In this document: positions 6,962 through 35,101 of the stretch, piece by piece
How the letters are laid out: each line of letters starts with the position of its first letter
Position numbering within the stretch: position 1 is the first letter of the stretch
Assembly (NCBI GenBank): GCA_020161665.1
Contig: JAIUPA010000034.1
Location: 1-64,000 of the forward strand
From: Pseudomonadota bacterium
Lineage (GTDB): Bacteria; Pseudomonadota; Alphaproteobacteria; Rhizobiales; Rhizobiaceae
DNA length: 64,000 nt
Direction of reading: 5' to 3'
Made by a program: the position numbers and the translations under genes
The notes under the pieces: model-generated
What the model saw: the letters and a program-made list of their open reading frames with translations, nothing else
Database searches by the model: none
Told to the model about the DNA's origin: nothing

Positions 6962-7001
6962 GGCAAGTCAGAAAAAATTCCCAAGAATAGGAAAATAATC
7001 A

Positions 7002-12702: not shown

Positions 12703-12703
12703 C

Positions 12704-14304: not shown

Positions 14305-14306
14305 TC

Positions 14307-15124: not shown

Positions 15125-15137
15125 CGGGGGCTGAAAA

Positions 15138-15542: not shown

Positions 15543-15556
15543 GGCGCGGCGGATCG

Positions 15557-19538: not shown

Positions 19539-21775
19539 TGGCTGAAGATGAAGAGCGCCTTGTTGTTCTGCTGGAAGCGCGGATCAAAGACCTTGAACGG
19601 AACATGGCGAAGGCGTCGGGCGTCACATCTCGACGCTTCCGGGAAATGTCGCTTCATTCCAAGCGGGCGACAAAGCAAATGGAGGATGATGCGGTTCGCT
19701 CGACGACCCGCATCAATCAGGCCATGGCGAGTGTTGGAACGCGTATTGGTGACTTCGGGCGGGCCTTTGGTGGAAACCTTCTGGCAGGCGCAACGCTGAG
19801 CGTGGCGGGCTTCGCTGCTGCTGTGAAGGGTGCCATTCAAAGCACGGCAGAATTAAGCCGGCAGGCGCGCCTTGCTGGCGTCGGGGTAGAGGCCTTTCAG
19901 GAACTCAAGTTCATTGCCGAACAGAACAAGATTGGCGTTGATGCTTTGGCCGATGGCTTGAAAGAAATGAACCTTCGCGCTGATGAGTTCATTTCAACGG
20001 GCGCTGGTGGTGGTGCCGAGGCATTTCAGCGCCTCGGTTACAGTGCCGAGGAGCTGGCCGAAAAGATCAAACAGCCTTCGGAACTCTTTGTCGAAATCAT
20101 CGGGCGGATGAAGCAGTTCGAACGGGCGGCACAAATCCGCCTTGGTGACGAGATTTTCGGGGGGCAGGCCGGGGAACGCTTTGTCGAACTTGTCGATCAC
20201 GGCGCGCAAGGCCTGAAGGAAGACATCCGCCTTGCCCGTGAAATGGGTATCGTCATGGAAGAGGGGATGGTCAAACAGGCTGAGGAGGTTGATCGAAAGG
20301 TCAACATTCTGGCCACTGTGATCGGCACGAAGCTCAAGGGCGCGATTGTCGAGGCGGCGCAAGGCTGGCTTCTGTTCTTCAACTCGTGGCAGGCTTTCGA
20401 AGAGCAGTCCGACAAGCGCGTGAGAAACGCCCTGGGCGATGTCTATTCCCAGATCGATACCGCAAAGCAGGAACTCGCAGACCTTGCGAACTCCAAGAAT
20501 GCCTTCCCCGGTGATATCAGCATCGACCTGAATATTGATCGCCAGAAGCAGCGCATTGACGAGCTGACCGGCGAGGCGCTGAAGCTTCGCGATATCCTCG
20601 ACAGGCGACAGGGCTACACGCCAGAAGGTGCGGTTGCGGCACCCAAACAAGAGCCGATGAAGGATACCGGCGCGGATTTTATTCGCAGCTACCGGGAAGA
20701 GCTTTCCAAGACGAACCGGGAAAGGCAGATCGCTTCGGAAGCCGAACGCATTCTGGCGGATGCTGCCAGCAAGGGCGCGAAGCTGACCCGTGATCAGGCG
20801 AATGCCCTTGCGGCGGAAAGCGTTGCCAGAGGTGAGCGGGATGCGGCGGCCCGCAAATCGGCTTCTGAAAGCGAAAAGAGCGCCAAGGCTACGGAAGCCG
20901 AACGGCAAAAGGTTGCCGATCTGATCCGCGACCTTGAAACGGAAATCGGCCTTGTATGGGCAAGCGATGAGGCGAAGCGGGCAAATGCGGCTTCCCGCGA
21001 GGCTGGTGCGGCGGCAACCGAGGGCGAGCGCCAAAAGATCATCGCGCTCAATGAGCAGCTATTCAAGGAGCAGGAAGCCCGGCAAAAGTCGGAAGAGGCA
21101 ATCCTGTATTATCGTGATCTCACCCGCGCCGGACTGGATGATCTTTTCAGCGCTTTAGAGCAAGGGAAAGACTTCTGGGAAAGCATGGGCGCAGCTGCCG
21201 TGAGTAGCCTGAAGCGCATTGCATCGACCATGCTGGATGATGTGCTTGATAGCATTTTCAAGGTGAACAATGCCGCATCGGGCGGGGGCGGCGGTTTCTT
21301 CTCGTCTTTGTTTGGTGGTCTCTTCGGCGGCGGAAGCTCGCAATGGGCGGCGGCATCCTCGGGCGCTCTTGCACCTGGTCTTTATGCCAACGGCGGCGCA
21401 TTTGGCCCATCCGGAGTAACGGCGTTCGCCAAGGGTGGATCATTCACAAACAAGGTTGTTGATCGACCAACCCTGTTTCCTTTCGCCAACGGCACGGGGT
21501 TGATGGGTGAGGCTGGGCCTGAGGCCATTATGCCATTGAAGCGGGACGCATCCGGCAGGCTCGGTGTATCTGCGCCGGGCGGGCAGGGTGCGCAAGGTGG
21601 CGCTGTTCAGGTTTCCAGCACCGTTGATGTTCGTGTTTCGGTTGATGACAGCGGCAACCTGAAGGCCTTTGTAGAGAATACCGCCTCTCGCGTGTCTTCC
21701 AGTCAGCTCGGCCAATATGACCGGCAAATGCCGGTGCGCGTTCGCCAGATCAACGCCAGCCCAAGGGTGGTTTGA
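19538..21775 (+). CDS. Tail tape measure protein (prophage)
   Basis: A 745-residue protein: N-terminal coiled coil (LEARIKDLERNMAKAS), hydrophobic helices near residues 70-110, a long charged helical middle (SESEKSAKATEAERQKVAD), a Gly-rich stretch (ASGGGGGFFSSLFGG) and the C-terminal block GLMGEAGPEAIMPLKR. The same C-terminal block ends the very short GTA tape measure at 34336-34911. It sets tail length; by the usual scale of about 0.15 nm per residue a tail near 110 nm would be expected. Confidence 0.92.
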   Translation: MAEDEERLVVLLEARIKDLERNMAKASGVTSRRFREMSLHSKRATKQMEDDAVRSTTRINQAMASVGTRIGDFGRAFGGNLLAGATLSVAGFAAAVKGAIQSTAELSRQARLAGVGVEAFQELKFIAEQNKIGVDALADGLKEMNLRADEFISTGAGGGAEAFQRLGYSAEELAEKIKQPSELFVEIIGRMKQFERAAQIRLGDEIFGGQAGERFVELVDHGAQGLKEDIRLAREMGIVMEEGMVKQAEEVDRKVNILATVIGTKLKGAIVEAAQGWLLFFNSWQAFEEQSDKRVRNALGDVYSQIDTAKQELADLANSKNAFPGDISIDLNIDRQKQRIDELTGEALKLRDILDRRQGYTPEGAVAAPKQEPMKDTGADFIRSYREELSKTNRERQIASEAERILADAASKGAKLTRDQANALAAESVARGERDAAARKSASESEKSAKATEAERQKVADLIRDLETEIGLVWASDEAKRANAASREAGAAATEGERQKIIALNEQLFKEQEARQKSEEAILYYRDLTRAGLDDLFSALEQGKDFWESMGAAAVSSLKRIASTMLDDVLDSIFKVNNAASGGGGGFFSSLFGGLFGGGSSQWAAASSGALAPGLYANGGAFGPSGVTAFAKGGSFTNKVVDRPTLFPFANGTGLMGEAGPEAIMPLKRDASGRLGVSAPGGQGAQGGAVQVSSTVDVRVSVDDSGNLKAFVENTASRVSSSQLGQYDRQMPVRVRQINASPRVV

Positions 21776-21777
21776 GG

Positions 21778-22137
21778 ATGGCCGATTTGTCAAAGCTTCT
21801 GTGTGCTGCCGTTCGCCGCAATCTTGAGAGGGGTGGCAGGCCTGTCATTCCGGCAGGCGGTGAACTTTTGTGGCGCTGGTTCAATGATATGCACAGCGCT
21901 CGCAGCTCGGGCATGAATGGCCCGAATCCGATCAGTTTTGAGGCGGTCGCGGCCTACGCCAGGCTGAACCGCTGGGCAATAGAGCCGCGTCATGTGTCCA
22001 TTCTGCAGGCCATGGACCGGGAGGTGATGGAGTATTTCAGGCGCTCGCGTCAGAGCGGCCCGCCCGGAGTGAAAGCCCTGCCGCCGATCTCGGACAGGCC
22101 GATTTCCGCCGCTGTTCTTGATGCAATGTTCGGGTGA
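21778..22137 (+). CDS. Small prophage protein after the tape measure
   Basis: A 119-residue protein with the segment ISFEAVAAYARLNRWAIEPRHVSILQAMDREVM, a pattern (helix, 'W-x-IEPRH', 'MDRE') common in small phage tail-assembly proteins that decide whether a residue is 'near the tail chaperone' type. GAGG precedes ATG 21778. The position after, not before, the tape measure is unusual for a chaperone, so the role is inferred and weak. Confidence 0.6.
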   Translation: MADLSKLLCAAVRRNLERGGRPVIPAGGELLWRWFNDMHSARSSGMNGPNPISFEAVAAYARLNRWAIEPRHVSILQAMDREVMEYFRRSRQSGPPGVKALPPISDRPISAAVLDAMFG

Positions 22138-22141
22138 TGTG

Positions 22142-23086
22142 ATGGCTTATCTTGCGAGGAAGAAAAAAAAGGAAAAGCAAAAAGCGAAGGTTTCCCAGGT
22201 CATTGGAGGAGAGCGCAGGAATCATGTGATTAATCAGGTTATGGATGTGCTGCGGGATTGGCGGTCATCAGCTTTCGAGTTTGAAGGTGTATGCCGCGCC
22301 AGTCTTCGTTCTGCACTGTGCGTTCAGGGATATGGCTGGGACCATTCGGATGCTGAGGCGGAAAGCATCTTGGCCGAGTGCTTCACCAGAATGGGCGCAA
22401 AGCGGCCTACCTGGTATGAGGGGCAGCGCGAATATCTTGAACCCCGTGAAAATTGTTCCTGGTGTTCCAAGCCTCTAGCTGACGATCTTCAGCGCAGCGG
22501 TTCGCGTTCCATGTACTGCTCTGACGTGTGCGCCCGCACTGCCATTGTGTACAGGACGGCGGCTGGAAAAGTGAGTTCCGACAAGGCCTATTCTGCTGCA
22601 TATGATGCGATGAGGCGGCTGAATTCCCCGGTTCGCCAGTGTTCGGTTTGCTCAAAAAACTTTCGTTCGGCGCACGCACCACAGCATTGTTGTTCCATTG
22701 AGTGCCGTGCCGCTTCTAGGGTTCTCATACCCACATGTACCTGCCAATATTGCGGTATTGAGTTCAGGCCGAGAATGTCGGTGAAATTTTTTGAGGATGG
22801 GCGTGGAAAGTTCTGCAGCCTCGAATGTAAGGGCAAGCACCAAAGCGAGGAGCGTTTCAACAGGCAATGTGTCTTCTGCTCTACATGGTTTATCTCAGCG
22901 TCGAGAAATGCCAAGTACTGCTCTTCCAGTTGCACAAATATGCGCTTTCGCGCATCTAAGGGCGTCTTTCCCACGAACCTAAATGTTAGGCTGTTTGACT
23001 ATCTATTCGTGACGCTACCACGGGAATCGGGGCCGCCACGGATCACCGCCGATATCTTCGATGTCTGTTTTGCGAGGGCGGCCTAA
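22142..23086 (+). CDS. Protein with four CxxC...CxxxC zinc-knuckle repeats (prophage)
   Basis: A 314-residue protein with a very basic start (RKKKKEKQKAK) and four repeats of the layout CxxC - aromatic - about 15-25 residues - YCSxxC: CSWCSKPL/YCSDVC, CSVCSKNF/CCSIEC, CQYCGIEF/FCSLEC and CVFCSTWF/YCSSSC. Each repeat can bind one zinc ion. The family is not recognised; repeats of this kind occur in nucleic-acid-binding proteins. It is the last gene of the rightward structural operon, in the place where tail-tip genes would be expected, and its base composition is poorer in GC than its neighbours. Confidence 0.75.
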   Translation: MAYLARKKKKEKQKAKVSQVIGGERRNHVINQVMDVLRDWRSSAFEFEGVCRASLRSALCVQGYGWDHSDAEAESILAECFTRMGAKRPTWYEGQREYLEPRENCSWCSKPLADDLQRSGSRSMYCSDVCARTAIVYRTAAGKVSSDKAYSAAYDAMRRLNSPVRQCSVCSKNFRSAHAPQHCCSIECRAASRVLIPTCTCQYCGIEFRPRMSVKFFEDGRGKFCSLECKGKHQSEERFNRQCVFCSTWFISASRNAKYCSSSCTNMRFRASKGVFPTNLNVRLFDYLFVTLPRESGPPRITADIFDVCFARAA

Positions 23087-23109
23087 CGATGAATTCGCTG
23101 GATCCTGAG

Positions 23110-23185
23110 GGTGGGGAAACTCCCCACCTGAAAAGCGTTGCCATCCGGAGCGCTTTTGAAAAACGTTTCAGATAAAAACGTTTTT
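23110..23185. terminator. Bidirectional terminator region between convergent prophage genes
   Basis: GGTGGGGA (23110-23117) pairs with TCCCCACC (23121-23128) over a three-base loop; AAAAGCG (23131-23137) pairs with CGCTTTT (23151-23157); and AAAAACGTTTTTT lies near 23174-23186, followed by TATTTTT. The structures lie between the rightward gene ending at 23086 and the leftward gene ending at 23204 and can stop transcription from both sides. Confidence 0.7.
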
Positions 23186-23203
23186 TATTTTTCCCGATGG
23201 GAC

Positions 23204-23482
23204 TTATTTCAGGCGCTGCGGAAGGGTTGGAATGCGCGGCTGGAGTGTGGGGAGTTTAGTCTTGGGTTCAGGTTTGGCTTCCAATGCCTTGAGGCCGGTG
23301 GTTGTAAGGCAGTAGCAGAACGCCGCCGGGTCTTGACTCCAAGGTGCCCTGGTTGCGTACCCAAGGCTTACCAGTTCGAGCGCCATGGTTTCGCTTATGT
23401 ATGGAATGTGATGTATAGGTTCATCCAAGCTAGCAGATTTCAAGGCATTGATAGCCTTGATGATGGCAGGTCTTTCACGCAT
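23204..23482 (-). CDS. Small prophage protein co-transcribed with the repressor
   Basis: A 92-residue protein beginning MRERPAIIKAINALKS, with a winged-helix-like middle (SETMALELVSLGYATR) and a proline-rich tail. It overlaps the end of the XRE-type gene upstream by eight bases, so the two are coupled. No specific family recognised. Starts further upstream within the frame would run deeply into the repressor gene and are rejected. Confidence 0.55.
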   Translation of the reverse strand: MRERPAIIKAINALKSASLDEPIHHIPYISETMALELVSLGYATRAPWSQDPAAFCYCLTTTGLKALEAKPEPKTKLPTLQPRIPTLPQRLK

Positions 23483-23744
23483 CGCTTTGACTTTCCGTCT
23501 TTTTAAGGCGAACGCCCGGCCCCTCGCCATTTTCCGGGACGAAAACAACGCCAGCTGCTTCCAATGCAGATTTTACTGCTTTCACATTATTCGCAAGACC
23601 TGTTGCGGGACCTGTGCTGGCCTCCATTCTTCGCAACGTAGGCACTGATATGTTTGCCGCAGTCGCTAACTTATCCTGGCCCATTCCTATGAGAATGCGA
23701 CCAGCCGCAATTTGTCGACCCAAAATTTGATCTTTTTCGCTCAT
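23475..23744 (-). CDS. XRE-family repressor-like regulator (prophage)
   Basis: An 89-residue protein with a Cro/CI-type helix-turn-helix (RQIAAGRILIGMGQDKLATAA, ISVPTLRRME) and the short tail FVPENGEGPGVRLKK typical of many rhizobial XRE regulators. It is transcribed divergently from the operon that ends with the integrase and is the only candidate for lysogeny control. It has no cleavable LexA-like C-terminal domain, so induction by RecA-stimulated self-cleavage is not expected. A GTG at 23753 is an alternative start. Confidence 0.82.
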   Translation of the reverse strand: MSEKDQILGRQIAAGRILIGMGQDKLATAANISVPTLRRMEASTGPATGLANNVKAVKSALEAAGVVFVPENGEGPGVRLKKTESQSDA

Positions 23745-23823
23745 ATCGATCACTAACTATTGACTTTCGCTCTTTTTGAGCGGATTCTTTCAAGAAGATC
23801 AAAACATATCACGGAGCAGCGCG
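23745..23823. promoter_or_regulatory. Divergent control region between repressor and the integrase operon
   Basis: TTGACT (23760-23765) is followed 17 bases later by a weak GATTCT, reading rightward. The dyad GCTC-TTTTT-GAGC (23769-23781) and the dyad TTCTT-TC-AAGAA just after it are candidate operators for the XRE protein. GGAG at 23813-23816 serves the gene starting at 23824. Confidence 0.45.
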
Positions 23824-24312
23824 ATGGGCTACCATTTTCGCGAACAGGAAATTTTTGTCCAAAATGAAGTATCTCGCCGGTCAATTCTGAAAGGGATTTT
23901 GGTCGGAGCCGCTGCGGGTGTGCCTGTCGCAGCGGAGGCAAATGCAACCACCGATGAAGAGCAGCTCGAAACCTGCCTGGCGCAGCTCAGCGACGTTCTT
24001 GCTCGGATGCACCCGAACATCAAATCGCCGCCCCGTCACTATCTCTCGCGCCGGGAAGATGGCTCTTTCCGCCTCGATGTTCGCGGCGATGTGGAATTCC
24101 AGCCATTCCAAGGTGACGGGGCGTATCTCGTCAGCATTGACGGGCGTATCTGCATTTACCTCGTGCGCGAAGAGCCAGTAATAACGCTGTCCGGTCGCAA
24201 TCTCGGTTACAGTCATTTCTACGGGCGGGTTTGGTGGAATGGCGCATGGAGCGATAACGAGTGCATCATCTCTCCAAACTTCATACGCAAGTTGGAGGAG
24301 GCTTCGCTATGA
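23824..24312 (+). CDS. Prophage protein with a Tat-like signal, unknown function
   Basis: A 162-residue protein. Residues 17-23 read SRRSILK, which fits the twin-arginine motif, followed by a hydrophobic segment (GILVGAAAGVPVA) and an AEANA cleavage-like end, so export of a folded protein is likely. The mature part has a helical stretch and a beta-rich half (RLDVRGDVEFQPFQGDGAYLVS, then GRVWWNGAW). The family is not recognised. GGAG lies seven bases before ATG 23824. It is the first gene facing the repressor, where phages usually have cro. Confidence 0.65.
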   Translation: MGYHFREQEIFVQNEVSRRSILKGILVGAAAGVPVAAEANATTDEEQLETCLAQLSDVLARMHPNIKSPPRHYLSRREDGSFRLDVRGDVEFQPFQGDGAYLVSIDGRICIYLVREEPVITLSGRNLGYSHFYGRVWWNGAWSDNECIISPNFIRKLEEASL

Positions 24313-24662
24313 GCATCCACTTCCGCCCCTCAGAGAATTTCAGCCGAATCGTTGAACTGACGCCGCAACTGCGCCGAGAGATCGAAGCGACCGTTGAGCG
24401 CCTGATTGCCATTCTCGACGTGTTCGATGGCGACGAAAACTGTGAAGACGATGCCTACGACGACCGGGAGGATGAGGATGAACACGGTGGCGACATTCTC
24501 GATGAGCCCCATGATGATCAGGATGAGGGTGAACCGTGGCTAGGTTGGACGGAAGTGGTCAATCAGACGGATATGTGGCGTTTAGCTGGCGGCATCCTGC
24601 TTGATGGTGAAATGGATGCCTATGGCGAGCCTGATAATTCTAAAAGCGATAACATCTTTTAG
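24309..24662 (+). CDS. Acidic prophage protein of unknown function
   Basis: A 117-residue protein: a helical N-terminus (LTPQLRREIEATVERLIAIL), a highly acidic middle (DDAYDDREDEDEHGG) and a WLGWTE segment. Similar proteins are scattered in rhizobial genomes and phages without a known function. It overlaps the preceding gene's stop (ATGA). Confidence 0.6.
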   Translation: MSIHFRPSENFSRIVELTPQLRREIEATVERLIAILDVFDGDENCEDDAYDDREDEDEHGGDILDEPHDDQDEGEPWLGWTEVVNQTDMWRLAGGILLDGEMDAYGEPDNSKSDNIF

Positions 24663-24727
24663 TCTGGTAAATTTCTAAATGAAATGATATCCATTAGCTA
24701 AAGGATTTTGATACCGTTGGAGTGATC

Positions 24728-25606
24728 ATGGCAACGTCTGGTGATTTGTCGCGAGTGGTGGCGAAGAATTTCAACTTACCTGAAGTGACGGTAGCCAACT
24801 GCTACCGCGCTCTTCGTGAGGCTGGATTAGTTCCAAAAGCAGGGAGGGGACCGCGCAGCGCTGCACCCGTTACGAGCGAAACCGCCGCCAAACTTCTGAT
24901 TGCTCTGTGTGGTTCACGATACGAAAAAGAGCCCGCGCCGAAGGTGCTGGAGAGTTTCGATGGACTAGTTTCACATTGGGCAGAATTTCGCGATGACACT
25001 ATGCATGAGTATGCGGAGTGCGACCCAATTTTCCGGCTTCCTGGATACAGTCTTCCATGCTTGGAGGCTCTTGGTCCCCGCCACAGTTTTCTTGATGGAC
25101 TTACGGCAGTTATTGAGACGGCTGCGCGTGGTGAATTTCCGTTCAAATCGGTTCGTGAGCTTAGGATCCCTAATCGCGTGACAATCGGCGTGGAGATTGT
25201 GGCCGCTCCGGTTCGCAGTGCGACTATAGAGATCATGATCGGTGGAGTTGGGCTTGGAGGTTTCGTGAGTGCGAACGTCTCCTATCGTCATATTGATGAC
25301 GAACAGCGAGATCGTGAAGAGCTTCTGGCGTTTATGGTGAACGCAGACCTGTCGATCACTAGAAGGTTTCGCGCGCCGACAATAATTGATCTTGGTGAAA
25401 TGCTAGGTGGAGAGCGGGCCGAAAGACGAAAGTCTTCTGTGGAACACGCACTCAATCAGATCGATGCTATTGTTTCTGCTGCTGACGCCAAAACCAAAAA
25501 CCTGCTGGAGACTGGTTCAGAGCATGAGAAGCAAGTTTTCCGGCTTGAGCTAAAGGCGATGATGGACAGCTTGGACCGGCTCCAGAAGGGGCTGGATGAT
25601 GGGTAA
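24728..25606 (+). CDS. Prophage protein, possible DNA-binding N-terminus
   Basis: A 292-residue protein. The first 60 residues contain a helix-turn-helix-like segment (LSRVVAKNFNLPEVTVANCYRALREAG) followed by a basic GRGPRSAAP linker; the rest shows a beta-rich centre and a helical C-terminus (NQIDAIVSAADAKTKNLL). No family assigned. It resembles regulators seen near integrase genes in rhizobial prophages. ATG 24728 has GGAG five bases upstream. Confidence 0.65.
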   Translation: MATSGDLSRVVAKNFNLPEVTVANCYRALREAGLVPKAGRGPRSAAPVTSETAAKLLIALCGSRYEKEPAPKVLESFDGLVSHWAEFRDDTMHEYAECDPIFRLPGYSLPCLEALGPRHSFLDGLTAVIETAARGEFPFKSVRELRIPNRVTIGVEIVAAPVRSATIEIMIGGVGLGGFVSANVSYRHIDDEQRDREELLAFMVNADLSITRRFRAPTIIDLGEMLGGERAERRKSSVEHALNQIDAIVSAADAKTKNLLETGSEHEKQVFRLELKAMMDSLDRLQKGLDDG

Positions 25607-25793
25607 CTCGCGATATCTGCAGGCAAAGCAGATTGCCGAAATACTCGGGTGCCGGACCGATTCGGTTCGTCGCATGTTTCGTGAAGGGAGGCTTCGCGGC
25701 GCATTTAAAGTTCCGGGAAAATCAGGGCGCATTCTCATGTCGACATCCGCTTTGCAACGGATGATGAAAGGGAAAGACGGAGGGCGTGGTTGA
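25599..25793 (+). CDS. Small excisionase-like helix-turn-helix protein
   Basis: A 64-residue protein with YLQAKQIAEILGCRTDSVRRM and a basic wing (GRLRGAFKVPGKSGRILMS), a MerR/Xis-type fold. It lies two genes before the integrase, so a directionality factor for excision is a natural role. ATG ATG at 25596/25599 gives a one-residue uncertainty; AAGGGG lies upstream. Confidence 0.75.
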   Translation: MGNSRYLQAKQIAEILGCRTDSVRRMFREGRLRGAFKVPGKSGRILMSTSALQRMMKGKDGGRG

Positions 25794-26071
25794 TGTCGGT
25801 AAAGGCTGAAAAGACTGCTGCAATCGTCCATGCTCGCCCGCCGTCCTACGTGTCGTGTGCGTCACTTGCTCTTGAGCTTGATGTGTCTGAAAGCACGGTT
25901 AGAGCACTCGTTGAAAAGGGTGTTTTGCCGAGGCCTATCAGGATCGAGGGTAATGTTCGTTGGCGTTGGGAAGATGTGAATGCTGCCCTGGGCGGTATCG
26001 TCGCTTCTGGCGGGAATAATGCGAGTGACCCTTATATGTCGGGGGCGCGCAATGCCACGGCGAAAAGGTAA
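25793..26071 (+). CDS. AlpA-like helix-turn-helix regulator
   Basis: A 92-residue protein with YVSCASLALELDVSESTVRALVEKGVLPRPIRI and RWRWEDVNAAL, the layout of AlpA/excisionase-type regulators, which in several satellites and cryptic prophages switch on excision. It starts on the stop of the previous gene and runs 20 bases into the integrase gene, so the three are one unit. Confidence 0.78.
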   Translation: MSVKAEKTAAIVHARPPSYVSCASLALELDVSESTVRALVEKGVLPRPIRIEGNVRWRWEDVNAALGGIVASGGNNASDPYMSGARNATAKR

Positions 26072-27146
26072 AGGCACAATCTCACTGCCTAAGAACGTCC
26101 ATAAGGTGACGTCGCGGGGCAAGCTCTATTTTTATTTTCAAATGGGGCGCGGCTCGGCCAATCCGGGGCCGCGCATTTCACTTCCTCGGGATCCTCACTC
26201 GCCTGAGTTCTGGTCTGCAATCCAGCAAGCGTGTGGTGGAGTTGTTTCGCTCCCTGCTGACACGTTCAATGCGGTTCTGGATGAGTGGTTGATGCATCTG
26301 CGGGTGTCCGGAGATGTGACGTCATCGACGGTGACTTTTTATGAACAGTCTCTCCAAGTTGCTCGGGCGGCTTGGGGAAGCTTGTCACCGCGTGGCTTGA
26401 AGCCCTTGCATGTTCTGGCGTTGATGAATGGGATGGGGGATCGACCTGGAGCTGCGAATAACTTTCTTTCTTCGATGCGCAGCTTCTCCAAGTGGGCGCG
26501 GCTCCATGAGCATATTGACGTCAATCTCACGGAAGGTATTTCGCCACGAAAGACCGGGGGAGGGCATAAGCCTTGGACGCCTGAGCAGATCGAGGCGGCC
26601 AAATCCAAGCTCAGCGGTGTCATTCGTCGTGGTGTTCTTCTTTACCTCTATACCGGAATGCGTGGGAGTGATGCCGTAAGGCTTGGCCCTGAGCATGTCG
26701 ATGAAGGCGGATTTTCGCTGCGAACACAAAAGAAGAAGCGGGACGTTTACTGTCCTATCCTGCCGGAGCTGGAGGAGGAAATGCGCACATGGAGCGCAAC
26801 GGAAGGCCCATATTTGCGGCAGGATGAAGGGCGCGCGCAAGGTCATCCCTACACTCGAAAGCTCTTCTCCAAGCACTTCGCTGAACAAAGGGATGCGATT
26901 CCGGAACTGGCGGGCGTCACCCTTCACGGGCTTCGTTGTACCGCCGTTATTCGGTTAAGGCGGGCCGGTCTGTCTGTCGGGCAGATCAGCGATATTGTCG
27001 GAATGTCTCTCCCAACCATTGAACGCTACTGCCGATTTGCGGACAGGAAGGCGAGCGGAAAAGCAGCGCTTGAAGCGCTCATTCGCAATGAAGCAAACGC
27101 GCCAACTGTAAAACGCAGCAAATCAGCAAAACAGAAGACAAGCTAA
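26052..27146 (+). CDS. int: Tyrosine recombinase (prophage integrase)
   Basis: A 364-residue phage integrase. N-terminal arm-binding part is basic (MPRRKGKGTISLPKN); a core-binding domain follows, then the catalytic domain with the first Arg in YTGMRGSDAVRL, the HGLR box in TLHGLRCTAV and the nucleophile Tyr in TIERYCRFAD. It would exchange strands at ATGTGTGA within the terminase gene. ATG 26052 is chosen over an upstream frame extension that would overlap the whole AlpA-like gene. Its stop is 28 bases from attR and no terminator follows before the GTA genes. Confidence 0.93.
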   Translation: MPRRKGKGTISLPKNVHKVTSRGKLYFYFQMGRGSANPGPRISLPRDPHSPEFWSAIQQACGGVVSLPADTFNAVLDEWLMHLRVSGDVTSSTVTFYEQSLQVARAAWGSLSPRGLKPLHVLALMNGMGDRPGAANNFLSSMRSFSKWARLHEHIDVNLTEGISPRKTGGGHKPWTPEQIEAAKSKLSGVIRRGVLLYLYTGMRGSDAVRLGPEHVDEGGFSLRTQKKKRDVYCPILPELEEEMRTWSATEGPYLRQDEGRAQGHPYTRKLFSKHFAEQRDAIPELAGVTLHGLRCTAVIRLRRAGLSVGQISDIVGMSLPTIERYCRFADRKASGKAALEALIRNEANAPTVKRSKSAKQKTS

Positions 27147-27174
27147 ATCAGCTAGTTACGGTGAAAAAGATGAA

Positions 27175-27182
27175 ATGTGTGA
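27175..27182 (+). repeat. attR core of the prophage
   Basis: ATGTGTGA, the second copy of the core at 8839-8846. Just upstream lies GGTGAAAAAGATGAA, which in the excised circle would stand in front of the first left-arm gene. Confidence 0.85.
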
Positions 27183-27300
27183 CTTTGGCCCGGATGGCCT
27201 CTCCGGCGGACGCTCGCCCGACCGGCTGGATGCGCTCGTCTGGGCACTGACCGCTTTGATGCTGGATGGCGCGGGCGAACCGCGTGTCCGGGGTGTTTAA
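27183..27300 (+). pseudogene. GTA large terminase, severed 3' part
   Basis: Codes for the last 38 residues of the terminase (FGPDGLSGGRSPDRLDAL and so on) after the att-encoded MCD, in the frame that joins exactly to the 5' part at 8846. The DRLDALVWA segment corresponds to the C-terminal acidic residue of the terminase nuclease. An ATG in the att core (27175) with GGTGA about ten bases upstream could in principle start a 41-residue peptide, but an independent function is unlikely. Confidence 0.88.
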
Positions 27301-27326
27301 TTAAAACGAATGGAATAGGAAAACCT

Positions 27327-27938
27327 ATGATCAACCGCCGTTTCTTCTTCGATACGGTGCGCCGCGATCTGTTTGCCGGGCGCTTGCGCCCCGGCCAGAT
27401 CGATGGGCTGAACGCCATTCTCGATCGCTTCGAGGAAACCATGCCGGAGGGCGATGACCGCTGGCTGGCCTACATGCTGGCGACCGCTTATCACGAGACC
27501 GCCGCGACGATGCAGCCGGTGCGCGAAACGCTGGCCCAGAGTGACGAAAAGGCGATTGCCGCGCTTGATCGCGCCATGGCGGCCGGTCGCCTGAAGACGG
27601 TGAAGACGCCCTACTGGCGTCTGGATGCCAAGGGTCAGAGCTGGCTCGGGCGCGGTTTCGTGCAACTGACGCACCGGCGCAATTACGAGGCGATGGCAAA
27701 AGCCACGGGCATCGATCTCTTGGCCCGCCCCGAGCGTGCCATGGAAAAGGACGTGGCGATCACCATCCTTTTCCGCGGCATGATCGACGGCCTGTTTTCG
27801 GGCAAGCGTCTGGCCGATTATTTCGCGGGCGATCTGGAAGACTGGACCGGCGCGCGCCGCATCATCAATGGTCTCGACCGCGCCGCGCTGGTGGCAGGCT
27901 ATGCCAAGGCCTTTTATGCCGCGCTCAGTTACCGTTGA
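27327..27938 (+). CDS. GH19-type endolysin in the GTA cluster
   Basis: A 203-residue glycoside hydrolase family 19 protein: MLATAYHETAATMQPVRE holds the catalytic Glu, and GRGFVQLTHRRNYEAM is the family's second signature. Without a signal peptide it needs a holin; a holin-like protein ends the GTA operon at 40873-41079. It would release particles by cutting peptidoglycan. It lies between terminase and portal, 26 bases after the terminase stop, a place where RcGTA itself has no lysis gene. Confidence 0.88.
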   Translation: MINRRFFFDTVRRDLFAGRLRPGQIDGLNAILDRFEETMPEGDDRWLAYMLATAYHETAATMQPVRETLAQSDEKAIAALDRAMAAGRLKTVKTPYWRLDAKGQSWLGRGFVQLTHRRNYEAMAKATGIDLLARPERAMEKDVAITILFRGMIDGLFSGKRLADYFAGDLEDWTGARRIINGLDRAALVAGYAKAFYAALSYR

Positions 27939-28001: not shown

Positions 28002-28310
28002 GTGATCCGTCACATTGTTTTCTTCACCGTCAGGCAAGAGCATCGCGAAGCCGTGCGCGCCGGACTGTCCGGGCTGACGGCCATTCCGCACGCCAGCGTT
28101 CTGGAAATCGGCGAAAACGTGAAGAAGGATCAGTGGGATACGAATGTCGATTTCATCGTTTACGGTGAATTCGAAAGCGAGGAAGCTCTGGCCGCCTACA
28201 AGGCCGATCCCGCCTATCAGAAGTCGACGGCGACCGTTCGCCCCATTCGCGAAACCCGCATTGCGGCGGATTTCGATGCCGACAAGGCCGTCAAGACGCC
28301 CATTCTGTAA
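28002..28310 (+). CDS. Dabb-family (stress-responsive A/B barrel) protein
   Basis: A 102-residue dimeric alpha-beta barrel domain (IRHIVFFTVRQEHREAVRAGL, VDFIVYGEFESEEALAAY). Members are small stress or metabolic proteins with no fixed function. It begins with GTG 28002 after AAGGGAG and lies between the GTA endolysin and portal genes, so it may be a cargo gene unrelated to particle formation. Confidence 0.85.
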   Translation: MIRHIVFFTVRQEHREAVRAGLSGLTAIPHASVLEIGENVKKDQWDTNVDFIVYGEFESEEALAAYKADPAYQKSTATVRPIRETRIAADFDADKAVKTPIL

Positions 28311-28345
28311 GGGCAATACGCCGCCCGAACCATGAGGACATCGCT

Positions 28346-29530
28346 ATGAGAATGCCCATCCGCCTGCCGTGGCAGCGCCCGGCGGACCGAAGTTCCGTGT
28401 CTGAAAACCACCCCGAAGAGATGAAAGCCGTCGCACCCTTTGCGGCGGTTTTTTCGTCTGCGGAAGGGGGCTGGTCGAACCGTCCCTATGCGGCGCTCGC
28501 CCGTGAGGGCTATCTGCGCAACCCCGTTGGCCATCGCTGTGTGCGGCTGGTGGCGGAAAGCGCTGCCGGTGTGCCGCTTCTGCTTTATGGCGCGGACGGC
28601 GAGCTGGATGAGCATCCGGCGCTTGCCCTGATGCGCCGTCCGAATGGTCGCCAGTCCGGCATCGAGTTTCTCGAAACGCTCTATGCGCATCTTTCGGTGG
28701 CGGGCAATGCCTTTATCGAGCCGGTAACGCTGGGCGGCGAGTTGCGCGAGCTTTACCTCCTGCGCCCGGACCGGATGCGGGTGATCGAGGGGCGTGATGG
28801 CTGGCCTTCGACCTATGAATACCGCGCCGGAAATACGGTGCGCCGCTTTGCCGTGGAAGGCGAAGGCCCGCGTCTGCTGCATCTCAAAACCTTTCATCCG
28901 CTAGACGATCATCTGGGTTATGCGCCGCTTTCGGCAGCGCAGGGCGCGCTCGATCTTCACAATGCCGCCGCCACCTGGAACAAGGCGCTTCTGAAGAATT
29001 CGGCCCGGCCATCCGGTGCGCTGGTCTATCAGCCGAAGGAGGGCGGCAATCTCTCGCCCGCGCAATATGAACGGCTGAAGCAGGAACTGGAGGACGGCTA
29101 TTCCGGCGCCGTGCGGGCCGGTCGTCCGCTGCTTCTCGAAGGCGGGCTCGACTGGAAGGCCATGGCACTTTCGCCGCGCGATATGGATTTCGTCGAGGCG
29201 AAGAATGGCGCGGCGCGTGACATTGCGCTCGCCATCGGCGTGCCGCCCATGCTGCTTGGTCTGCCGGGCGATAATACCTATGCCAACTATCAGGAGGCGA
29301 ACCGTGCCTTCTGGCGGCTGACGATCCTGCCGCTGATTGGCCGGGTCATGGGGGCGGTGTCGGTCTGGTTGTCGGAAGCCTATGGCGAAAGCCTGCGTTT
29401 TGAACCGGATCTCGACCGCATTTCCGGCCTGTCTGCCGAGCGCGGAGAATTGTGGCAGCGTCTGGAGCAGGCAAGCTTCATCACCGATGCCGAAAAGCGC
29501 GAGGCTGTCGGCTACAGCGCCGAAAGCTGA
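28346..29530 (+). CDS. GTA portal protein (RcGTA g3 type)
   Basis: A 394-residue HK97-type portal with RDIALAIGVPPMLLGLPGDNTYANYQEA, the family's core block, and SPRDMDFVEAKN. It forms the DNA entry ring of the GTA head. The block differs from the prophage portal (IARAFNIPASLIGDLTR), showing two separate head systems. It starts the uninterrupted downstream half of the GTA cluster. Confidence 0.94.
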   Translation: MRMPIRLPWQRPADRSSVSENHPEEMKAVAPFAAVFSSAEGGWSNRPYAALAREGYLRNPVGHRCVRLVAESAAGVPLLLYGADGELDEHPALALMRRPNGRQSGIEFLETLYAHLSVAGNAFIEPVTLGGELRELYLLRPDRMRVIEGRDGWPSTYEYRAGNTVRRFAVEGEGPRLLHLKTFHPLDDHLGYAPLSAAQGALDLHNAAATWNKALLKNSARPSGALVYQPKEGGNLSPAQYERLKQELEDGYSGAVRAGRPLLLEGGLDWKAMALSPRDMDFVEAKNGAARDIALAIGVPPMLLGLPGDNTYANYQEANRAFWRLTILPLIGRVMGAVSVWLSEAYGESLRFEPDLDRISGLSAERGELWQRLEQASFITDAEKREAVGYSAES

Positions 29531-29578
29531 AGCATTTCAGGGGCAGGGAAGGGGAAGCGGAATCGGAATCAGTACCGC

Positions 29579-29782
29579 TTGAATCCGTTTGCGAGGACGC
29601 TCAATCACCGCATGAGCGGCTTCAGAGCCTGCGTGAAGAAGCGGATTCAGCGTCTTAAAAAACGCGTCCAAGCGATTCTGGGGGTTCACCAATTCGATGC
29701 TGTTGAGACGCTGCTTGAACGCGGCGTTGAGAACAGACCCGGCTCCTTAGCAAACCAATCGTTAATGAAAGATAACCGATGA
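29579..29782 (+). CDS. Possible small basic protein between GTA portal and DUF6107 gene
   Basis: A 67-codon frame (TTG start) rich in Arg and Lys (CVKKRIQRLKKRVQAIL) whose stop overlaps the next start as ATGA. This coupling is the only support; there is no clear ribosome site and no recognised family. RcGTA clusters can have a small gene here (g3.5). The rest of the 248 bases between 29531 and 29778 holds nothing else I can identify. Confidence 0.3.
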   Translation: MNPFARTLNHRMSGFRACVKKRIQRLKKRVQAILGVHQFDAVETLLERGVENRPGSLANQSLMKDNR

Positions 29783-30099
29783 CGGACTTCGTACAGGAGC
29801 CCGGCTTCACCGCATTGCGCCTTCTGGGCGCAGCGTCCGGGGCTGCGGTATCGCTGGTCTATATGCTGCCGAAAAGCCGGCGCGAAGCGGCCAGCCGCTT
29901 TGTCACGGGCCTCGCCTGCGGGCTGATCTTCGGCCCCTCGGCGGGTCTGTGGATTGCCCGGCAGGCCGGTTTGGCGGACCTTTTGTCCACCCCTGAACTT
30001 CTGCTGATGGGCTCTGCCGCCGCCAGCCTTTCGGCCTGGTGGGTACTGGGTGCATTGACCCGGCTGGCCGCCCATTTTGGCGCGCCGCGGGGACACTGA
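29779..30099 (+). CDS. DUF6107-family membrane protein (GTA cluster)
   Basis: A 106-residue protein with three hydrophobic helices (LRLLGAASGAAVSLVYML, FVTGLACGLIFGPSAGLWIA, LLLMGSAAASLSAWWVLGAL). Proteins of this size lie at this place in rhizobial GTA clusters. Function unknown; a role in the membrane during assembly or release is speculation. Confidence 0.75.
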   Translation: MTDFVQEPGFTALRLLGAASGAAVSLVYMLPKSRREAASRFVTGLACGLIFGPSAGLWIARQAGLADLLSTPELLLMGSAAASLSAWWVLGALTRLAAHFGAPRGH

Positions 30100-30123
30100 A
30101 CAATCACGAAACGTGGAGATTTG

Positions 30124-30699
30124 ATGATGCACGCAGAAAAGCGGGCAAACCCTTTCACGCACAAATTTGCGAGCCTTTCGCTTTCGAAACTCTCCGGTGA
30201 TGGCTCCTTCTCGGGCTATGCGAGCCTGTTTGGCGAGGTGGATCTTGCCAAGGACCGCATTGAGCGCGGTGCCTTTGCCGCAAGCCTTGCCGAACGCGGC
30301 GCGGCGGGCGTTCGCATGCTCTACCAGCACGATCCGGCCGAGCCGATCGGGGCGTGGAAGATCATCCGCGAGGATGCCCGAGGCCTTTACGTCGAGGGGC
30401 TTTTGTCACCCGGCGTGGCGCGGGCCCGCGAAGTGCATGCGCTGATGAAAACCGGCGCGCTGGATGGCCTGTCCATCGGCTTTCGCACCGTGCGCGCCAA
30501 GCGCGATCCCGCGACCGGCGTGCGCCGCATTCTCGAAGCCGACCTTTGGGAAATCTCGGTCGTGACCTTTCCGATGCTGCCATCGGCCCGGGTCTCGAAC
30601 GTCAAGAACGCGCGGTTTTTCCGCGACAAGGAAACGGAACTCGTCCGCACCCTGCGGCGGGCGACCCGCAGCATGATCATGACAACCTTCAAGGGATAA
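30124..30699 (+). CDS. GTA prohead protease (g4 type)
   Basis: A 191-residue HK97-type serine protease: MLYQHDPAEPIGAWK (catalytic His), GALDGLSIGFRT (catalytic Ser) and LWEISVVTFPMLPSA. It trims the capsid precursor encoded next. ATG 30124 has GGAG seven bases upstream. Confidence 0.93.
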   Translation: MMHAEKRANPFTHKFASLSLSKLSGDGSFSGYASLFGEVDLAKDRIERGAFAASLAERGAAGVRMLYQHDPAEPIGAWKIIREDARGLYVEGLLSPGVARAREVHALMKTGALDGLSIGFRTVRAKRDPATGVRRILEADLWEISVVTFPMLPSARVSNVKNARFFRDKETELVRTLRRATRSMIMTTFKG

Positions 30700-30704
30700 T
30701 GCCG

Positions 30705-31949
30705 ATGACCATCGACACGCATAAGACTGCCCCCGAAATCAAGGCCGTGCCGGATACGGTGGCCTCCGCTTTCGACGAGTTCATGGAGGCCTTCGAGGCG
30801 TTCCGTGAAACCAACGACCAGCGTCTGGCCGAGGTGGAGCGCAAGCTTTCGCCCGATACGCTGACCGTCGAGAAGATGGACCGCATCAACCGCGCCATCG
30901 ACGACCAGAAGAAGCTGCTCGACCAGCTGCTGCTCAAGAAGGCGCGCCCGGCGCTGGGCGGTGGGGCTTCGGCGGAACCGTCTGAACACAAGTCGGCTTT
31001 CGAGACCTATGTGCGCCGGGGTGACGAAAGCGCGCTGCGCGAGATCGAGGCCAAGGCCTTTTCCGGCAGCACCGGCACCGATGGCGGCTATCTGGCCCCG
31101 CCGGAAACCGATGCGGCGGTCGGTCGTCGCCTTGCCAATATCTCGCCCATCCGTTCGCTGGCTACGGTGCGGCAGGTGTCCGGCGCGGTGCTGAAGAAGC
31201 CGTTTGCCACTGCCGGGCTTGCCACCGGCTGGGTGGGTGAAACGGCGGCCCGCCCGCAGACCAACACGCCGCAGCTGGCCGAGCTGTCCTTCCCGACCAT
31301 GGAACTTTACGCCATGCCGGCCGCCACGCAAGGCTTGCTCGACGATGCGGCGGTCGATATCGAAAGCTGGATCGCCGGTGAGGTGGAAATCGTCTTTGCC
31401 GAACAGGAAGGGGCTGCCTTCATCAATGGCGATGGCGTGACGGCACCGAAGGGCATTCTGACCGAACCCAAGGTGGCCGACACCAGCTGGGCCTGGGGCT
31501 CCCTCGGCACGATTTCCACCGGACAGGCGGGCGCCTTCAAGGCCTCCGGTCCTTCCGATACGCTGATCGATGCGATCTACGCGCTGAAGGCCGGTCATCG
31601 CCAGAACGCCACCTTCCTGATGAACCGCAAGACGCAGAGCGCTATCCGCAAGTTCAAGGATGCCGACGGCAATTATCTCTGGATGCCGCCGAGCGCACCG
31701 GGCATGGCTGCTTCGCTGATGGGCTTCCCGGTGGCTGAGGCCGAGGATATGCCGAACATCGCCGTGGATGCCCATGCCATTGCGTTTGGCGATTTCCGCG
31801 CCGGTTATCTGGTGGTTGACCGCGTCGGCCTGCGCATCCTGCGCGACCCCTATTCCGCCAAGCCTTACGTGCTGTTCTACACCACCCGCCGTGTTGGCGG
31901 CGGCGTGCAAAACTTCGAGGCGATCAAGCTCATCAAGTTTGCCGCCTGA
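30705..31949 (+). CDS. GTA major capsid protein (HK97 fold, g5 type)
   Basis: A 414-residue HK97-fold capsid subunit with an N-terminal helical delta region (EAFRETNDQRLAEVERKL) and the blocks TDGGYLAPPE, PAATQGLLDDAAVDIESW, NATFLMNRKTQSAIRKFKD, LMGFPVAEAEDMPNI and AIAFGDFRAGYLVVDR. The block order equals that of the prophage capsid. The ATG at 30705 has AAGGG nine bases upstream; ATG 30699 is too close to it. Confidence 0.95.
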   Translation: MTIDTHKTAPEIKAVPDTVASAFDEFMEAFEAFRETNDQRLAEVERKLSPDTLTVEKMDRINRAIDDQKKLLDQLLLKKARPALGGGASAEPSEHKSAFETYVRRGDESALREIEAKAFSGSTGTDGGYLAPPETDAAVGRRLANISPIRSLATVRQVSGAVLKKPFATAGLATGWVGETAARPQTNTPQLAELSFPTMELYAMPAATQGLLDDAAVDIESWIAGEVEIVFAEQEGAAFINGDGVTAPKGILTEPKVADTSWAWGSLGTISTGQAGAFKASGPSDTLIDAIYALKAGHRQNATFLMNRKTQSAIRKFKDADGNYLWMPPSAPGMAASLMGFPVAEAEDMPNIAVDAHAIAFGDFRAGYLVVDRVGLRILRDPYSAKPYVLFYTTRRVGGGVQNFEAIKLIKFAA

Positions 31950-31967
31950 TCGGTGAAGGCCGAGATC

Positions 31968-31996
31968 GTCACCCTCGGGCTTGCCCCGGGGGGGAC
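31968..31996. repeat. Half copy of a dispersed palindromic repeat
   Basis: GTCACCCTCGGGCTTGCCCC followed by GGGGGGGACG resembles the first palindrome of the element at 59098-59173 (GTCATCCTCGGGCTTGACCC). It lies in the 89 bases between the GTA capsid and connector genes. A transcribed palindrome here could stabilise or end part of the message. Confidence 0.5.
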
Positions 31997-32038
31997 GTGT
32001 CGGAACATCGCCACGCTTCGTAATCCCCGGGAGTTTCC

Positions 32039-32608
32039 ATGACCTATGCAACGCTTGCTCCGCCGGTGGCGGAACCCCTGACGCTGTCCGAAACGAAAGC
32101 GCATCTGCGGCTTGATAGCGCTGATGAAGATGCGCTCCTGTCGTCGTTGATCCGGGTGGCGCGCGAACATCTGGAACGCGAAACCGGGCTTTGCCTCATC
32201 GACCGGACGCTGCGGCTCTACCGCGACGACTGGCCGGAGGAAGATGTGATCCTGATCGATCCCGGTCCGGTGAAAGCGGTGACGGCGGTCACGGTCTATG
32301 ACGCCGCGGGTCAGCCCTCCACCGTGCCGCTGTCCGGTTCGCGGCTGGATGGCAACACCCGGCCTGCAAGGCTTTACCTGCCTGTGCGTCCGGCGCCGGG
32401 TGCGGCGCTGAACGGTATCGAGATCGATTTCACCGCTGGCTTTGGCAGCGCGGGAACGGATGTTCCCGATACGCTGAAGCGGGCGCTTTTGATGCATGTG
32501 GCGCTGATGTTTGCCTTTCGCGGTGCCGTGGCAGCCGACAGCCAGCCGGTCGCCGTGCCGGATGGCTATGAGCGTCTCGTCGCGCCCTATCGCCTGCGGA
32601 GGCTCTAG
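32039..32608 (+). CDS. GTA head-tail connector (gp6-like, g6 type)
   Basis: A 189-residue protein beginning with the connector family's first helix (TLSETKAHLRLDSADEDALL), a long beta-rich middle and TLKRALLMHVALMFAFRG at the end. It is almost twice as long as the prophage counterpart at 16021-16320. It forms the ring beneath the portal. Confidence 0.88.
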   Translation: MTYATLAPPVAEPLTLSETKAHLRLDSADEDALLSSLIRVAREHLERETGLCLIDRTLRLYRDDWPEEDVILIDPGPVKAVTAVTVYDAAGQPSTVPLSGSRLDGNTRPARLYLPVRPAPGAALNGIEIDFTAGFGSAGTDVPDTLKRALLMHVALMFAFRGAVAADSQPVAVPDGYERLVAPYRLRRL

Positions 32609-32944
32609 ATGCCGCTGGTATTCTTTGACCCCGGCCAGATGACGGCCCGGCTTGACCTTCAGCGTTCCGTCTCCGCCCCGGACGGACAGGGCGGGGCGAC
32701 CGTTTCTCAGGAGACGGTTGCCTCGCTTTGGGGGCGGATCGAACCCGTCTCAACCACGCTGACGGAGGAAGCCTCGCAGCGAATCTTCTCCATCACGCAT
32801 CGCATCTGGATCGCCTATCGCGCCGGCCTGATGGCAGGCATGCGCTTCGTGCGCGGCGAGCGGGTGTTCACCATCCGCGCCGTCAACGATCCCGACGAAA
32901 CGCGCCGTTATCTCGTCTGCCAGTGCGAGGAGGAGGGGGCATGA
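32609..32944 (+). CDS. GTA head closure protein (g7 type)
   Basis: A 111-residue head-tail joining protein (LDLQRSVSAPDGQGGATVSQ, ASLWGRIEPVS, RFVRGERVFTIRAVNDPDE). It starts directly after the previous stop and overlaps the following start. Confidence 0.9.
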   Translation: MPLVFFDPGQMTARLDLQRSVSAPDGQGGATVSQETVASLWGRIEPVSTTLTEEASQRIFSITHRIWIAYRAGLMAGMRFVRGERVFTIRAVNDPDETRRYLVCQCEEEGA

Positions 32945-33348
32945 GTGCTGCCAATACGCTGATGACAGCGCTTCAGGCGCGGCTGGGTGGCGACGCGACG
33001 CTGATGGGGCTGACGGGCAACCGCGCGCCGGTCGACCGGCTTCTCGATCGCACGGCGCTGCCGCTCATCGTCTGGGGCGAAATGGAAACGCGCGACGCAT
33101 CGACGGCGAGCGAACCGGGTGAGGAACACTTGTTTTCGCTGGCCGTATGGTCGGACGCCGAAGGGCGGCGCGTGGCCGAAGAGATCGCTGCAAGGATTAA
33201 ATTCCTCACCCATGACGCGGCGCTTGTCCTTCCCGGCCATGCCCTTGTCAGCCTGTTTCACCGTTCGACGCGCACCCGTCGCGAGCCGAAAAGCAAACGC
33301 TTCGTCGCGGAGGTGTTCTTCCGCGCCGTGACCGAACCTAACCCTTGA
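32941..33348 (+). CDS. GTA DUF3168 tail terminator (g8 type)
   Basis: A 135-residue DUF3168 protein (LGGDATLMGLTGNRAPVDRL, HLFSLAVWSDAEGRRVAEEI). It caps the tail tube at the head side. Its start overlaps the closure gene by four bases. Confidence 0.9.
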   Translation: MSAANTLMTALQARLGGDATLMGLTGNRAPVDRLLDRTALPLIVWGEMETRDASTASEPGEEHLFSLAVWSDAEGRRVAEEIAARIKFLTHDAALVLPGHALVSLFHRSTRTRREPKSKRFVAEVFFRAVTEPNP

Positions 33349-33361
33349 AAAGGATCGCCAG

Positions 33362-33769
33362 ATGGTTGCCCAGAAAGGCAAGGACCTTCTTCTGAAAATT
33401 CATAACGGCACGGCCTATGTCACGGTCGCGGGCTTGCGCTCCAAGCGCCTGTCCTTCAATGCCGAGACGGTGGATGTGACCGATGCCGAAAGCGCCGGTC
33501 GCTGGCGTGAGTTGCTGGGCGGCGCAGGCATTCAGCGCGCTTCGCTGTCCGGCACCGGCATTTTCAAGGATGCCGCTTCCGATGCCCGCCTGCGCGAGGT
33601 CTTCTTCGCGGGCGACATCGTTTCCTGCCAGATCGTCATTCCCGATTTCGGCACGGTCACGGGCCTGTTCCAGATTTCCGCGCTCGAATATTCCGGCCAG
33701 TACAATGGCGAAATGCAGTTCGAGGCGACGCTGGAATCGGCGGGCGCCCTGACCTTCGGTGCGCTGTGA
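33362..33769 (+). CDS. GTA major tail tube protein (g9 type)
   Basis: A 135-residue beta-rich tube protein of the phage major tail family: MVAQKGKDLLLKI, YVTVAGLRSKRLSFNAETVD, VTDAESAGRWRELL and FQISALEYSGQYNGEMQFE. There is a single copy, against two tube-like genes of another kind in the prophage. AAAAGGATCGCC precedes the ATG. Confidence 0.92.
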   Translation: MVAQKGKDLLLKIHNGTAYVTVAGLRSKRLSFNAETVDVTDAESAGRWRELLGGAGIQRASLSGTGIFKDAASDARLREVFFAGDIVSCQIVIPDFGTVTGLFQISALEYSGQYNGEMQFEATLESAGALTFGAL

Positions 33770-34125
33770 TGTGTGGCCGGGCCAACCGCAGGCGCGGTGA
33801 GGTGGATGCGGTCATCGGCGGCGAACGGCGCATTTTGTGCCTGACGCTCGGCGCGCTGGCCGAATTGGAAACCGCCTTTGCCGTCGATGATCTGGCAGCG
33901 CTTGGCAGTCGTTTCGCCACGGGGCGGCTGAAAGCGGCGGACTTGATCCGCATTATCGGGGCCGGGCTTCGCGGCGCGGGCAACCTGATCAGCGATGAAG
34001 AGGTGGCAGGCCTTGAGGTGGAAGGGGGCGTTGCCGGTGCGGCGCGCCTTGTCACCGACCTTCTGGCCGCCGCCTTCCATGCCGAAGGCTGGACCGCGCC
34101 GGACCCTTGCCCAACGGACCCTTGA
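33769..34125 (+). CDS. GTA-gp10 family tail assembly protein
   Basis: A 118-residue protein of the GTA-gp10 family (LTLGALAELETAF, DDLAALGSRFATGRLKAADL). In RcGTA it is needed for tail assembly and acts like a tape-measure chaperone. The start overlaps the tube stop. Confidence 0.87.
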   Translation: MCGRANRRRGEVDAVIGGERRILCLTLGALAELETAFAVDDLAALGSRFATGRLKAADLIRIIGAGLRGAGNLISDEEVAGLEVEGGVAGAARLVTDLLAAAFHAEGWTAPDPCPTDP

Positions 34126-34343
34126 ATACCGCAGCAGGCGCACCGCAACCCTTTCCCTGGGCCGCGGTGCTGCACACCGGGCTTTGCCTGTTGCGGATGC
34201 CCCCGAACACCTTCTGGACCATGACCCCGCGTGAGTTCTTTGCCGCCGCAGGCGGGTTGAAGCCGAGAGGCGACGCCCCTTCGCGCACCGATCTTGCCGG
34301 TCTTATGGCCCATTTCCCGGATGAGGAACACGTTGATGGATGA
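34122..34343 (+). CDS. rcc01693-like tail assembly chaperone
   Basis: A 73-residue protein (PFPWAAVLHTGLCLLRMPPN, FWTMTPREFFAAAGG) typical of the small gene between gp10 and the tape measure in GTA clusters, usually named after rcc01693. TTG 34122, overlapping the gp10 stop, gives the usual length; TTG 34107 is an alternative. Confidence 0.82.
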   Translation: MNTAAGAPQPFPWAAVLHTGLCLLRMPPNTFWTMTPREFFAAAGGLKPRGDAPSRTDLAGLMAHFPDEEHVDG

Positions 34344-34911: not shown

Positions 34912-34943
34912 AGGTTGAGGGGAGCCCCTCATCCGGCTGCCGC

Positions 34944-35056
34944 CCCCTTCTCCCCGCAGGCGGGGAGAAGGGGAATAGGCAAGGTTTTGCCCCCCGTCTT
35001 TGGGTGGAAAGAGTCGTTCGCCAGCACAGCCCCTCTCCCCGCAGGCGGGGAGAGGG
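34944..35056. repeat. Pair of rhizobial intergenic palindromes (RIME-like)
   Basis: Two perfect palindromes with the same core: 14-base arms CCCCTTCTCCCCGC / GCGGGGAGAAGGGG at 34944-34973, and 12-base arms CCCTCTCCCCGC / GCGGGGAGAGGG at 35031-35056, each around AG. They are flanked by the CCTCATCCGGCTGCCG and GGGGTGAGGGG segments typical of mosaic elements of Rhizobiales. They split the GTA late operon between tape measure and DUF2460 gene in an otherwise gene-free stretch of 190 bases. Confidence 0.8.
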
Positions 35057-35101
35057 CCGGGGTGAGGGGCGAAAGCACAGATAATATATCAGAGGTGAAC
35101 G

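Follow-up and report, generated by a model that had tools for sequence, protein, structure and literature searches.

Gene transfer agents (GTAs) are maintained across Alphaproteobacteria. In active lysogeny, or regulated gene integrity, of which the comK prophages are an example, integration splits a gene and excision restores it. The helper-embedded PICIs (HE-PICIs) are small satellites with an integrase clade that targets the late genes of resident phages, one of 14 sites lying in the large terminase gene, and they disrupt the target gene without replacing it and in the same orientation (Tommasini et al., 2023; PMC10111431). Transcription of the Caulobacter GTA requires an anti-terminator, GafZ, which loads at a palindrome in the GTA promoter, the polymerase then passing the terminators of the cluster (PMC11150451). 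A lysozyme gene between terL and portal has been reported for the GTA clusters of Agrobacterium (PMC11409702).

The window considered here is the whole stretch of 64,000 nucleotides of Rhizobiaceae DNA that was analysed (assembly GCA_020161665.1, contig JAIUPA010000034.1, positions 1 to 64,000). It holds a GTA cluster with the RcGTA-type order terL-portal-protease-capsid-tail-gp12-15, syntenic in two genomes of the same genus (G097 and G171), in which terL is split by an integrated element (Table 1). Aligned to the uninterrupted terL of these two genomes, the window sequences on either side of the element share exactly 8 bp, demonstrating an empty site, and this 8-bp core is present in two copies in the window and in one copy in each of the two genomes. 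The element measures 18,336 bp from core to core. The profile match of the 5' part of terL stops at position 134 of 155, and past the left junction the frame runs ...LEDQMCD-NRTSGKHTGKTSGYVLH to a stop; the split gene ends within the element as ...MCDNRTSGKHTGKTSGYVLH and a stop, attP bringing no replacement 3' end for terL. The missing C-terminus is found between int and the GTA endolysin gene, where it reads MCDFGPDGLSGGRSPDRLDALVWALTALMLDGAGEPRVRGV up to its stop. Through the insertion TerL loses its last 38 residues, including the conserved C-terminal SPDRLDALVWAL block. GTAAAAC repeats resembling the arm sites of an integrase are conserved at attR. Since positions 27183-27301 are the cut-off 3' end of terL, the stretch joining int to the GTA genes is the attR of the element that splits this gene, and we consider it likely that the adjacency reflects a satellite-like tyrosine-integrase element that uses GTA terL as its specific attachment site. 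No excised circle or attP sequence was found in viral contigs.

Table 1. Coordinates of the element, its junctions and the flanking GTA cluster in the window.
Feature	Position	Strand	Basis or remark
GTA promoter: TTGACA, spacer palindrome CACCGTgACGGTG, TAGGGT; leader	6975..7060	+	conservation
Terminator-like hairpin and T-run 5' of GTA gp1	7085..7116	+	fold z -2.1
GTA terL, 5' part	7650..8846 (start approximate)	+	PF03237 and PF17289
attL core ATGTGTGA	8839..8846	+	flank overlap on both empty-site genomes
Integrated element	8847..27174	+	between the two cores
HTH protein (phrog_15967)	9336..10130	+	first major gene past attL in most relatives
Element portal (PF04860)	10531..11817	+	
Prohead protease (PF04586)	12196..12702	+	
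Major capsid protein (PF05065)	12656..13909	+	
HNH endonuclease	14307..14651	+	
Major-tail-protein-like, neck, tail terminator and head-closure genes	14456..17549	+	
Element TerS and TerL (PF03354/PF20441)	17531..19538	+	
Tape measure protein	19523..21775	+	
Terminator-like hairpins	23109..23190	both	fold z -3.3 (+), -3.0 (-)
Repressor-like gene	23475..23753	-	relatives in several elements
Operon upstream of int	23776..26071	+	
Excisionase-like HTH gene (phrog_66; HTH_17)	25790..26071	+	adjoins int; last of operon 23776..26071
Tyrosine integrase, int	26052..27146	+	PHROG phrog_1, E 2.5e-33
attR core ATGTGTGA	27175..27182	+	flank overlap on both empty-site genomes
Severed GTA terL 3' end (FGPDGLSGGRSPDRLDALVWALTALMLDGAGEPRVRGV, stop)	27183..27301	+	sequence, empty-site comparison
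GTA endolysin	27327..27938	+	phrog_181, E 3.6e-34
GTA Dabb, portal, protease, capsid, connector, tail, TMP, gp12-gp15 (baseplate/hub)	28002..40850	+	all open

A GTA terL was identified in 147 of 200 genomes of the family, and among the matches listed, those ending prematurely at the junction come from the set's three element carriers (G000, G002 and G197). The dN/dS of the terL remnant is 0.13-0.14, compared with 0.09-0.31 for the other GTA genes, so that it appears to be under the same constraint, implying that the insertion is recent or reversible; the low ratio fits equally well a young insertion that never excises.

The same terL codons are the target of 22 insertions, 17 co-oriented with the gene (that of the window and 16 relatives) and five reversed, from six host families: Rhizobiaceae, Phyllobacteriaceae, Alloboseaceae, Nitrobacteraceae, Methylobacteriaceae and one further. 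Integrases at least 60% identical to that of the window occur in Rhizobium herbae, Pararhizobium mangrovi, Chelativorans intermedius, Bosea vaviloviae and Rhodopseudomonas palustris, as well as in a Hyphomicrobiales MAG and in metagenomic contigs, and in every one of these relatives int is followed by the same terL codons. Methylobacterium sp. W2 provides a more diverged co-oriented case, and the reversed insertions belong to four other Methylobacterium genomes and to one genome of another family (G469). Among the IMG/VR contigs with the codon site, 36 have it intact, five carry an integrase of the window type and one ends in an unrelated prophage. This last record (IMGVR_UViG_2926570559_000003) contains at least 36 kb of prophage ending at the GTA terL codons, with genes that by eye are TerS-, TerL-, portal- and lysozyme-like, and gave no match to PF00589 or PF00239. 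One metagenomic contig (L042) shows the same junction of element and GTA at 100% protein identity; in another (L045, 1357-3000) a split TerL has one of its parts inverted, through misassembly or rearrangement.

Sister integrases with 44-48% identity adjoin the tmRNA gene (ssrA) instead, a placement given by Rfam alpha_tmRNA in nine cases and by a motif in three more. They belong to related elements with head genes and lie at the end of the gene. In the integrase tree the ssrA group stands apart from the terL users, for which a single clade is compatible with the data (AU p 0.26), and this pattern suggests that the integrase may have switched its target between ssrA and GTA terL.

In the window element the reading frames of int and xis are open, as are those of the portal, capsid, TerL and TMP genes, and its TerL differs in type from that of the GTA. 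An element without a terminase of its own was ruled out by the presence of TerS and TerL. Among the element ORFs scanned we recognised no baseplate/hub or lysis genes, which a complete temperate siphophage would carry, and no clear replication genes, primase included; an Rfam search of the window gave no matches. The relatives vary in architecture. Compact forms of about 10 kb encode HTH, HNH, TerL, capsid, protease, portal, adaptor, xis and int, with no tail or lysis genes recognised, and the 18-kb forms have a tail tube and tape measure in addition. The portals, capsids, terminases and tape measures of the window element and of the 17.9-kb R. palustris element are unrelated; the latter, which has a primase-like gene, likewise showed no recognisable baseplate or lysis genes, and none were recognised in any element scanned. 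In R. herbae the element at this site (record 4200-20000) has the tape measure as its sole recognised structural gene, accompanied by VasI-like and DUF7380 proteins. Within the scanned elements and their flanks, relatives of GTA gp12-gp15 were found in the flanking GTA only, and the gp15-type hub is present as a single copy in the genome of the window, where it is that of the GTA, and in those of R. palustris, Bosea and Methylobacterium W2. This anatomy points to satellites that may depend on the tail tip of another particle, for which the GTA would be a candidate donor. Two similarities were rejected as links to the GTA. That between the element and GTA tape measures (41% over the C-terminal 103 aa) is uninformative about baseplate sharing, since this motif finds better matches (65-68%) in unrelated phages of Burkholderia and Vibrio, and free phages match the head-tail adaptor of the compact elements better (up to 40%) than the GTA does (26%).

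A promoter of the GTA about 20 kb upstream of the endolysin gene, at 7.0 kb, had been proposed from the sequence-only reading and is real by conservation: its sequence ATTGACACCGTGACGGTGCTTTGATAGGG hardly differs in G097 and G171, R. herbae and P. mangrovi have variants of it, and the hairpin and T-run before gp1 can also be seen in G097, in G171 and in P. mangrovi. The layout at 6975-7116 in Rhizobiaceae, with a palindrome between the -35 and -10 boxes and a hairpin before gp1, resembles the Caulobacter GafZ site, and by this analogy suggests that GTA anti-termination may operate outside Caulobacter. In P. mangrovi, a carrier of the element, the GTA portal gene has an in-frame internal deletion of about 85 codons (record ~450-1370).

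Integration removes the C-terminus of TerL and places 18 kb between the GTA operon and its promoter. Given that TerL loses its last 38 residues and the operon its promoter, DNA packaging should fail in a GTA with the element in residence, and transcription of its downstream genes from the native promoter should cease, unless an anti-terminated polymerase traverses the element. Int, together with the excisionase-like protein encoded beside it, would excise the element and restore terL exactly. The likeliest effect is regulated gene integrity, which has been described for HE-PICIs (PMC10111431), with the packaging of the GTA off until excision, although the shortened TerL could in principle have residual activity.

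The site may instead be neutral, which we hold to be possible but somewhat unlikely. Here terL would be used for its conserved codons, present in most Hyphomicrobiales, the loss of the GTA would have no role, and the donor of tails, if any, would be an infecting phage. Most family genomes have the site intact, these codons are also where an unrelated full prophage ends, the compact-element adaptor is nearer to free phages and the P. mangrovi GTA portal is deleted internally, all in agreement with neutrality. However, intragenic attachment sites usually come with a replacement 3' end (PMC10111431), whereas the terL users supply none, and the ssrA sisters, unlike them, sit at a gene end.

Control in the reverse direction, from the GTA to the element, seems unlikely. 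Anti-terminated polymerase from the 7.0 kb promoter of an activated GTA would run through terL and transcribe the head genes of the element, as in an analogous model proposed for HE-PICIs (PMC10111431). The conserved promoter, with its palindrome between -35 and -10 and its downstream hairpin laid out as at the Caulobacter GafZ site (PMC11150451), and the head genes at 9.1-23.1 kb, which share the orientation of the GTA, would suit such a passage; some insertions are reversed, however, and the hairpins at 23.1 kb come after the head genes.

The sequence-only reading had proposed that GTA genes are transcribed from a prophage promoter. The anatomy behind that proposal is borne out: int points into the GTA genes with the endolysin gene, within 181 bp of the int stop at 27146, as the next complete gene, and nothing like a terminator stands out between them, the segments 27100-27240 and 27230-27345 folding at z = 0.35 and 0.16. 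A consensus scan gave two weak plus-strand hairpins within int (26321 and 26614), no plus-strand hairpins between 26631 and 27797, and nothing promoter-like at 27150-28350, where a promoter of the GTA's own would have spoken against read-through (the GTA portal begins at 28346). The convergent terminator suspected at 23.1-23.2 kb corresponds to stacked hairpins that fold beyond shuffles on both strands, which fits a bidirectional terminator. What does not follow from this anatomy, although it permits it, is that the prophage promoter drives the GTA genes. The int stop lies 19-47 nt from the core in the terL insertions measured, and int adjoins att likewise at ssrA, where it runs antisense into the tmRNA, and in most reversed terL insertions, in which the GTA genes are not downstream of int in the sense direction. 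This layout is thus an inherited property of the attachment site and not tailored to the GTA. In addition, the candidate promoter (TTGACT-17-GATTCT, at 23.76 kb) is weak, falling under the scan threshold, and overlaps a palindrome beside the divergent repressor-like gene; because that gene adjoins it, the promoter is probably shut in a quiet lysogen. Firing of xis-int would lead to excision, abolishing the arrangement of int and GTA. Transcripts of xis-int may continue into the GTA, probably as a by-product of int lying beside attP.

The stronger form of that claim, in which transcription from about 23.76 kb provides the integrated element with the lysis, head and tail proteins of the GTA, is in our view quite unlikely. 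It could draw on the missing terminator, on the co-orientation of 17 of the 22 insertions and on the baseplate and lysis genes, unrecognised in the scanned elements, yet present just 3' in the GTA. Against it stand the geometry of int and att shared with the ssrA sites and the reversed insertions, the weak promoter with its adjoining repressor and a window of action that closes once excision begins. In HE-PICIs, the closest known system, the proposed control is the opposite, with late transcription of the helper reaching the satellite (PMC10111431), and passage through the Caulobacter cluster needs anti-terminated polymerase loaded at the GTA promoter (PMC11150451). That the element is a prophage decaying by chance loss of its baseplate and lysis genes is very unlikely, for even though these and clear replication genes went unrecognised in the window element, several architectures at the same site lack the same functions, two of them with unrelated packaging modules (a phrog_9-type and a gpA-type TerL), and every recognised gene of the window element is open.

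We thus return to an element for which GTA terL is the specific attachment site. If this is correct, the terL-splitting integrase clade would be a natural, possibly reversible off-switch of GTAs, helping to account for strains with seemingly intact GTA genes that make no particles, and satellites living on a domesticated, non-propagating helper would become a testable question. A GTA-parasitising life cycle is a doubtful extension: integration into terL would stop the packaging of host DNA, the element would build heads of its own, with tail tubes in some forms, and the particles would be completed and released by baseplate and lysis proteins of the GTA, expressed in cis or trans. In the literature searched we found no precedent for a mobile element that specifically splits a GTA terminase, or for a GTA satellite.

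The HE-PICIs of enterobacteria are the closest known kind, with a GTA here in the place of the helper. Like them, the window element has its specific integration site inside one of the late genes of a phage-like element, leaves the 3' end of the target unreplaced, has int beside a small HTH excisionase gene and, with its 16 relatives, is co-oriented with the interrupted gene. It differs in that the hosts of HE-PICIs are enterobacterial lambdoid prophages and not an alphaproteobacterial GTA unable to propagate itself, in an integrase without a close match in the phage collection searched (best 27%), and in having no clear AlpA or primase; moreover, most of the elements described here encode their own heads, and five of the 22 insertions are reversed. 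The compact relatives, whose gene content is given above, resemble capsid-forming PICIs (cfPICIs): they encode a capsid, portal, protease and terminase of their own, and nothing recognisable for tail or lysis. The window element, in contrast, is larger and carries a tail tube and tape measure, and the set as a whole was found through a Hyphomicrobiales integrase with no close phage match. The flanking cluster is RcGTA-like in its head-tail genes and Agrobacterium-like in its terL-lysozyme-portal order (PMC11409702), except that an intact terL is replaced by an interrupted one. As in active lysogeny, the window element splits a gene that excision would restore; in this case, however, the gene belongs to a domesticated phage and not to a cellular pathway.
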